Assembly: GCA_028707255.1 (NCBI GenBank)
Contig: JAQTUQ010000012.1
Coordinates: forward strand, 1 to 46,213
Direction: 5' to 3'
Source: Dehalococcoidales bacterium
Lineage (GTDB): Bacteria > Chloroflexota > Dehalococcoidia > Dehalococcoidales > UBA5627
DNA length: 46,213 nucleotides
Shown here piece by piece: positions 17,603 through 19,503 of this stretch; position 1 is the stretch's first letter; each line of letters opens with the position of its first letter. The translations under genes and the position numbers were made by a program. A model generated the notes under the pieces. That model made no database searches. It worked only from the letters and a program-made list of their open reading frames with translations, and was not told the DNA's origin.

Positions 17603-17758
17603 ATAATATTAACCTTTTCAATTCTCATTTTAAATTGCATAAATTAAACGTAAATATTATAATTAATAATGCTTTTGACGCGCTTGTTATTTGAATGTTT
17701 TTTACTACTTTTATCATTTACTTCGTCTATAAAAATGCCATAAATAAAGAGGTGAATT

Positions 17759-18607
17759 ATTAACAGGAAATTTCTGTTTGTTTTCATAGTATTTTTTATT
17801 GTTTTTACAATAGGAATTGTTTACTCCTATTTGTATGATTCGGTTTTATTTGATACAGCCCCCTGGGTTATTTTAGTCTCTATTTTCACCGGTATTGTGC
17901 TTGGTATCTTCAGGAGCAAAGCCATACAAAATAAAATAATCGGCGATGGACGGGTTATAAGACACAACGGGAGCGGATTTTTTCAGCATTGGGGAACGGC
18001 ACTGGGTATATTCGCATTAATAGCATCGGGAATAATAATGGGTTTCCTCTTTTTCCCCACTATTATCAAATCACCCTCGGGATTTATATTTCCCATGAAT
18101 ATGCACTTCGTTGGTTTGATAGTTACTCTTTTTGGCGGTTTCTATTTCTTAACAAGTTATTTACTATCTAAAAAAATCGGAACTTTAATCCCTGACTCTA
18201 AAGACATCATACATGGCACCTTCGGTAAGTATATCTTAAGAAAGACGTGGACACCGGAAGATAAATATCTCTCATCTCAGAAAGCGTCTTTTCTATTGTT
18301 TGCGATATTAGGTTTGGGGCAATTAGTCACCGGCGGCATAAAAGTAGCTGCACATATATGGAGTTTAAGCCCGTCTTTAATGTCAATTTCAACAGTTCTT
18401 CATGATATATTCTCCCTGTTATTCATTTTACTGTTGTTGGAGCACATATTATTTGTTGTGCTGATAAAAAAACACCGCATTTTGCTTGCTTCCTGGTTCA
18501 AGGGAACGGTAGCCGAAGAATATACCAGAAAGGAACATACCTTCTGGTATTCTGAACTACAAAAACAGCAATTAGAAGTGGCGGACTCAGAGGAAATAAA
18601 TAAATAA
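17759..18607 (+). CDS. Membrane cytochrome b-type subunit, probable AUU start
   Basis: Integral membrane protein with five to six helices. RHNGSGFFQHWGTALGIFAL, NMHFVGLIVTLFGGFYFLT and LHDIFSLLFILLLLEHILF supply four histidines in the layout of di-heme cytochromes b of the formate dehydrogenase gamma / Ni-Fe hydrogenase type. The first standard start (TTG, 17831) would cut off an open in-frame stretch of 24 codons that encodes a perfect first helix (NRKFLFVFIVFFIVFTIG). GAGGTG lies just upstream of an ATT at 17759, so AUU is the likely start; CTG at 17774, behind AGGA, is the alternative. Its stop overlaps the start of the tri-heme lipoprotein, so the two should form one quinol-linked electron-transfer unit. 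Confidence 0.75.
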   Translation: MNRKFLFVFIVFFIVFTIGIVYSYLYDSVLFDTAPWVILVSIFTGIVLGIFRSKAIQNKIIGDGRVIRHNGSGFFQHWGTALGIFALIASGIIMGFLFFPTIIKSPSGFIFPMNMHFVGLIVTLFGGFYFLTSYLLSKKIGTLIPDSKDIIHGTFGKYILRKTWTPEDKYLSSQKASFLLFAILGLGQLVTGGIKVAAHIWSLSPSLMSISTVLHDIFSLLFILLLLEHILFVVLIKKHRILLASWFKGTVAEEYTRKEHTFWYSELQKQQLEVADSEEINK

Positions 18608-18942
18608 TGAATACTTTTATAGAATCAAAGCATAAAAAACTTTTATTATTAGGCATAGCTATCTTAGCGGTAATAATTGTAATGACAGCCTGTAACAGGG
18701 AAACTGAAGAAGGCACATCGTTATCTATAGGAGATTCTATGCTTGATATGGGATATGAAAATTGCCTTATATGCCATGTCGGCGGACAGAATCCTATGGC
18801 CGTTCATTGCGATGAAACAATGCAAGACGACGCATCTCTTGATATTTGCTTGGTATGCCATGTAGATATGCGCAATATAATATCCGGTGAAAAACCCCTT
18901 ATTAACTGTACGGATTGCCATTATCCATATACCGATGATTAA
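18607..18942 (+). CDS. Tri-heme c-type cytochrome lipoprotein
   Basis: A 111-aa lipoprotein: hydrophobic segment 11-26, lipobox MTAC with Cys29. Three CxxCH heme-attachment motifs follow: CLICH (53-57), CLVCH (81-85) and CTDCH (101-105). His67 and other residues could be second axial ligands. The ATG overlaps the stop of the cytochrome b gene (TAATG), which means translational coupling. By analogy with NrfH/NapC-type or similar quinol dehydrogenases, electrons would pass from the membrane cytochrome b to this outward-facing protein; the terminal acceptor is not encoded nearby. Cytochrome c maturation genes must lie elsewhere. Confidence 0.88.
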   Translation: MNTFIESKHKKLLLLGIAILAVIIVMTACNRETEEGTSLSIGDSMLDMGYENCLICHVGGQNPMAVHCDETMQDDASLDICLVCHVDMRNIISGEKPLINCTDCHYPYTDD

Positions 18943-19116
18943 AAGACCAAGAGATAAAGTTAAGCATTATTATTTTTCTGATGTGATTTATTGGCAGGTT
19001 CAAATGAGGAGCAGCAGTGTTTCACAGCCTCGAGATTCTTCTTGACGAATAGTTGCAGCAAGTATTAATTCTTACATACTATTGACATTCGTCGAGCCGC
19101 TAACTACAATAAATTT

Positions 19117-19503
19117 ATGACTAATAGTAAAATGGGATTGGGTGAAGTAATCAGGCAGCAAAGGGTTTCTATCCCTCTGACGCTTCAGGAGCTTGCCAGG
19201 ATGGGTAAAGTATCTCCGTCTCACCTCGGTCGTATCGAAAGAGGTGAAAGATATCCTTCGGCCCGTATCCTGCGCAAGATAGCCAAACCGCTGGGATTCG
19301 AAGAGGATGAGCTTTTCACACTGGCCGGTTACCTGTCCTCTCCGCAAACCGGTTGCGCCTCGGAAGCAAGCACCAATTATAACAACGGAAGATTAGACCC
19401 CTATGTAGCCAAGGTACTGGCACAGGAACCTCTTGATGTCCAATATGCGGTTATCGGCATACTGACCATGCTTAAAAACATTGCCAAGAACATCGACAAA
19501 TAA
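19117..19503 (+). CDS. XRE-family helix-turn-helix regulator
   Basis: A 128-aa protein whose N-terminal 65 residues are a Cro/CI-type helix-turn-helix: GEVIRQQRVSIPLTLQELAR, then VSPSHLGRIERGERYPSARI and the closing helix LRKIAKPLGF. The C-terminal half (about 75-128) is unclassified and ends in a helix that may dimerise. No ribosome site is evident before the ATG. It stands alone, 174 bp after the cytochrome genes and 69 bp before cca; its targets are unknown. Confidence 0.85.
   Translation: MTNSKMGLGEVIRQQRVSIPLTLQELARMGKVSPSHLGRIERGERYPSARILRKIAKPLGFEEDELFTLAGYLSSPQTGCASEASTNYNNGRLDPYVAKVLAQEPLDVQYAVIGILTMLKNIAKNIDK

Follow-up and report, generated by a model that had tools for sequence, protein, structure and literature searches.

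In the draft genome of a Dehalococcoidales bacterium (69 contigs, 1.64 Mb), a gene for a membrane cytochrome b probably initiates translation at an AUU codon, positions 17759-17761 of the analysed stretch of 46,213 nucleotides (the window, contig 20 of the assembly). Initiation here would be weak, supported by a Shine-Dalgarno (SD) sequence and limited by initiation factor IF3, and would have followed a one-base change from ATG to ATT. We infer that the AUU is real in the cell and that initiation takes place there, and the same holds for the low output, the dependence on IF3, the coupling to a partner gene and the order of events described below. The features of the locus are:

17695-17763, plus strand: hydrophobic upstream open reading frame (ORF) of 22 codons, its TAA overlapping the AUU by one base (ATTAA); read from the sequence, within chance expectation
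17749-17755, plus strand: SD sequence GAGGTGA, the final G of GAGG lying 6 nt 5′ of ATT 17759; read from the sequence, with spacing as in relatives L002, L003 and L018
17753-17755, plus strand: in-frame TGA within the SD, which with the TAA at 17741-17743 rules out an upstream in-frame start
17759-17761, plus strand: putative AUU start codon, where homologues have ATG; from the alignment with 23 relatives
17759-18607, plus strand: membrane cytochrome b of 282 aa, with a PF01292 Ni_hydr_CYTB core and extra N-terminal helices; from Pfam and homologues
17768-17836, plus strand: first membrane helix, which a start at TTG 17831 would remove; a hydrophobic helix in 23/23 aligned relatives
17831-17833, plus strand: TTG, the earliest canonical in-frame start, rejected on homologues and sequence, without a well-placed SD
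18607-18942, plus strand: partner gene for a multihaem cytochrome c lipoprotein (lipoprotein-like) of 111 aa with three CxxCH motifs; from the sequence and homologous loci

The cytochrome b and cytochrome c genes occupy the interval between the end of priA (17602) and an HTH gene at 19117, and the stop of the former shares one base with the start of the latter (TAATG). Against the Pfam family PF01292 (prokaryotic cytochrome b561 / Ni-hydrogenase cytochrome b) the cytochrome b scores 44.3 bits, above the gathering cut-off of 30.1, and against the formate dehydrogenase subunit gamma model TIGR01583 it scores 40.1 bits, below the curated cut-off of 115.85. The order from which the relatives were drawn apparently belongs to the Dehalococcoidia, and in most of its homologous loci a CxxCH lipoprotein gene directly follows cytochrome b. 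Across the order (L002-L032), cytochrome b and a small cytochrome c lipoprotein, in which the motif 'ENCxxCH' recurs, are kept together as a two-gene module. Among the genomes compared (G004, G005 and G001), only the genome of the window (G000) has the pair between priA and the HTH gene; in G004 these two genes are adjacent, and in G005 and G001 priA is followed by the next gene in line, with neither the cytochrome pair nor the HTH gene there. The pair has probably reached its place in the interval 17603-19116 by insertion or relocation, and its leader is rich in AT (22% GC).

Read in frame, the start region runs ATG (17735) CCA TAA ATA AAG AGG TGA (17753) ATT (17756) ATT (17759) AAC AGG AAA TTT CTG and so on to TAT TTG (17831), and the frame stays open down to the TAA at 18605-18607. 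Between the TGA at 17753 and the TTG at 17831 there is no in-frame ATG, GTG or TTG. An earlier reading of this DNA, made from its sequence only, had described an ATT after GAGGTG, in frame with the gene and followed by 23 open codons before the TTG, with a TGA two codons ahead of it and with the intervening codons encoding a first membrane helix. This description holds once the ATT is taken to be the second of the two, at 17759: GAGGTG spans 17749-17754, the TGA at 17753-17755 lies two codons upstream, and every aligned relative has the helix. The SD motif is not unusual by itself, as GAGGTGA occurs six times in the window versus 3.3 expected, and an SD followed by ATT arises in 38 of 100 window shuffles. 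The case for the start rests on the homologues and not on the SD motif.

The homologues were obtained by searches of the order, at about 31-51% identity, and the protein alignment holds 24 sequences, the cytochrome b of the window and 23 relatives (one homologue is common to contig L019 and to L004 of G059). At the residue of ATT 17759, 22 of the 23 relatives have ATG and one (L031) has GTG; none has AUU. The offsets at the N-terminus are small, with one relative starting one residue later and two extending slightly further ahead of the same helix. The same-genus homologue L002 begins ATG AAC AGA and a paralogue in the same genome (L018, contig 41, 51% identity) begins ATG AAT AGA, versus ATT AAC AGG in the window. 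The leaders are likewise comparable: GAGG-ttatta-ATG in L002, GAGG-atataa-ATG in L003, GGGG-ttattt-ATG in L018 and GAGG-tgaatt-ATT in the window, so that the spacing from GAGG or GGGG to the start is 6 nt in the window and its three closest homologues, with a longer SD in the window. The sequence-only reading had named such an alignment beforehand as the comparison that could overturn it, and the relatives start with ATG or GTG at the ATT and not at the TTG. On the strength of the homologous start codons and the common leader geometry, the start position at 17759 is settled, and the difference comes down to one base of the codon. As the AUU is not shared by the relatives, the alignment gives no sign of selection for the AUU codon itself.

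All invariant alignment columns are retained in the cytochrome b of the window, including H69, H77, H116, H215 and H229, putative haem ligands that are invariant in 24/24 sequences, and among the 44 columns with at least 90% conservation only 2 differ. The partner cytochrome c gene is also intact. The window protein sits on a long branch, and the path to its closest relatives is long as well. Judged by the alignment and the open frame, the cytochrome b coding sequence is intact.

The proposed course of initiation would be the following. AUU 17759 would be read by initiator fMet-tRNA, and the strong, well-spaced SD GAGGUGA would hold the 30S subunit in place at the weak codon, offsetting its weakness in part. 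IF3 would render the AUU inefficient, so that cytochrome b output may be a fraction of the AUG level, and coupling may hold down the overlapping gene for the cytochrome c lipoprotein as well. The state most likely arose by a single base change from ATG to ATT in one lineage, the one in which the pair was also brought to its place between priA and the HTH gene. On any codon but AUG, GUG or UUG, IF3 makes the initiation complex less stable, and infC is autoregulated in this way (PMC5472188); the AUU start is presumably sensitive to IF3 likewise. Low output is expected by analogy, because AUU and AUA starts in Staphylococcus aureus and Listeria are weakly translated: in poor medium, reporters with the starts of the S. 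aureus genes cvfC1 (AUU) and ccpN (AUA), which have extended SD motifs, yielded some 10% of what AUG gave (PMC13009471), and a Listeria rsbW change from ATG to ATT arose spontaneously under selection and strongly cut translation (PMC13068326). Weak AUU translation of cytochrome b may represent adaptive tuning, drift after relocation or a first step of loss.

Several other accounts of the locus were weighed. The ATT may be a mistake of sequencing or assembly, or may come from a minor strain variant in the consensus, in an organism that really has ATG; this is unlikely. In its favour, the assembly is a draft of 69 contigs in which one wrong base would look identical, each of the 23 relatives has ATG or GTG at the site, and the searches of other genome contigs and plasmids found no independent copy of the locus DNA. 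Against this, the error would have to be a substitution falling exactly in the start codon. Typical consensus error rates are 1e-5 per base or less. At such rates about 0.05 wrong start codons are expected in a genome of 1,600 genes, and true non-canonical starts, usually one to a few per genome, are a priori commoner; in Listeria, rare or flexible starts occur in <0.3% of core genes (PMC13068326). Loss of the start codon in a fresh pseudogene, open by chance and with the paralogue on contig 41 as a backup, is very unlikely. Such a paralogue does exist at 51% identity, a Listeria AUU reporter gave very little expression (PMC13068326), and a very recent loss would look identical to an intact gene, but 282 codons are open, every invariant residue is kept, the partner gene is intact and the SD is still strong.

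The remaining accounts place initiation differently. Translational coupling, wherein ribosomes ending the 22-codon ORF at 17695-17763 would restart at the overlapped AUU, has a very slight probability: the one-base overlap is present and passing ribosomes would melt a weak hairpin over the SD, but the ORF lacks an SD of its own, has no equivalent in any of 11 homologous leaders and resembles ORFs that appear in 11-19% of shuffles, and the z-score of the hairpin is only -0.72, within chance. Translation solely from TTG 17831 or from CTG 17774, giving a shorter protein with the preceding stretch as a leader, is hardly to be believed. TTG belongs to the standard start codons, and mechanical ORF calling picks it, but starting there would drop the first helix common to all relatives, whose own starts match the ATT, and no SD stands at a fitting distance. 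The sequence-only reading had allowed for CUG besides AUU, and here the two part: AUU 17759 is favoured by homologues and SD spacing, and CTG 17774 lies 21 nt from the SD and disagrees with the homologues. The first ATT, at 17756, is only 3 nt from GAGG, and the homologues align one codon further on. Any in-frame start further upstream is blocked by TAA 17741 and TGA 17753. GTG 17752 lies in a different frame, which closes three codons on. Through an indel error it could be joined to the gene, but its distance from the SD would be about zero.

Initiation at AUU 17759 can be set beside known systems with rare start codons. As in Escherichia coli infC and pcnB, AUU replaces AUG, the conserved site offers no canonical start and low initiation is expected. 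E. coli infC differs in that it encodes IF3 itself, is autoregulated and has a non-AUG start that is widely kept, whereas the cytochrome b AUU occurs in one genome only and its product is a respiratory membrane protein. S. aureus cvfC1 and ccpN similarly combine a non-canonical start with a strong SD, and cvfC1 is the first gene of an operon (PMC13009471); their codons, unlike the cytochrome b AUU, are conserved in staphylococci (that of ccpN also in Bacillus subtilis) and backed by ribosome profiling. In the L. monocytogenes rsbW mutants with ATG changed to ATT or ATA, a one-base change from AUG to AUU also lowers translation while the gene survives, but these mutants came from laboratory selection under acid stress (PMC13068326). 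Streptomyces sigR, with its GTC start, is a further gene besides infC whose rare start codon IF3 discriminates against; there repression by IF3 was shown experimentally, whereas for cytochrome b it is inferred (PMC5472188).

Few natural AUU starts are known outside infC. The cytochrome b AUU seems to be a modest new example of the translational throttling known from infC, pcnB and S. aureus cvfC1, and if it is the real start, AUU in place of AUG should reduce cytochrome b production by the cell. Genes with AUU starts are overlooked or shortened by annotation, and in this case the entire first membrane helix would go. The locus is also good material for comparison, as the genome holds an ATG paralogue and ATG homologues have equal SD geometry.

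Non-canonical starts were also sought elsewhere in the lineage by scanning 255 kb (the window and stretches of the same genome) for such codons at SD spacing. The exceptions among the matches were infC and rsfS; the remaining ones looked like antisense or chance ORFs, and an ORF on the minus strand at position 598 of L068 was set aside, as it has an ATG ATG start further inside. The infC gene (L037:1225-1815, contig C45; relatives L101-L123) has no canonical start in the genus, which thereby has the usual IF3-type context. The use of such codons in infC and rsfS speaks for the AUU start of cytochrome b. In two genus members its start reads GAGGAGGGATATAAAGAC ATA ATT AAA, with close variants in other members, and ATA at this position is kept in nearly all relatives of the order tested, usually followed by ATT AAA. 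It is doubtful that the non-canonical starts of the order (infC AUA, rsfS CUG and, here, cytochrome b AUU) form a small IF3-responsive set, which if true would make the output of the respiratory chain and of ribosome silencing depend on growth state or on the levels of initiation factors.

The gene rsfS, for the ribosomal silencing factor (L061:4799-5140, contig C7, plus strand), reads GGAGGCATCAA CTG GAA GGT in the 255-kb sample and appears to start with CUG. Across the order (relatives L075-L100) the start codon is CTG in 23 of 26 genomes, with ATG, TTG and GTG in one each, and 16 genomes have no ATG, GTG or TTG in the eight codons ahead of the CTG at the start position. No paper describing a CUG start for rsfS turned up in a text search of the available literature, which is not proof of novelty. 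This start, kept across an order and better supported than the cytochrome b AUU, may be the better lead of the two and is probably mis-annotated in many genomes. In many genomes of the order the CTG stands behind an SD of the GGAGG type, and rsfS has CTG again in some of the phylum beyond the order.
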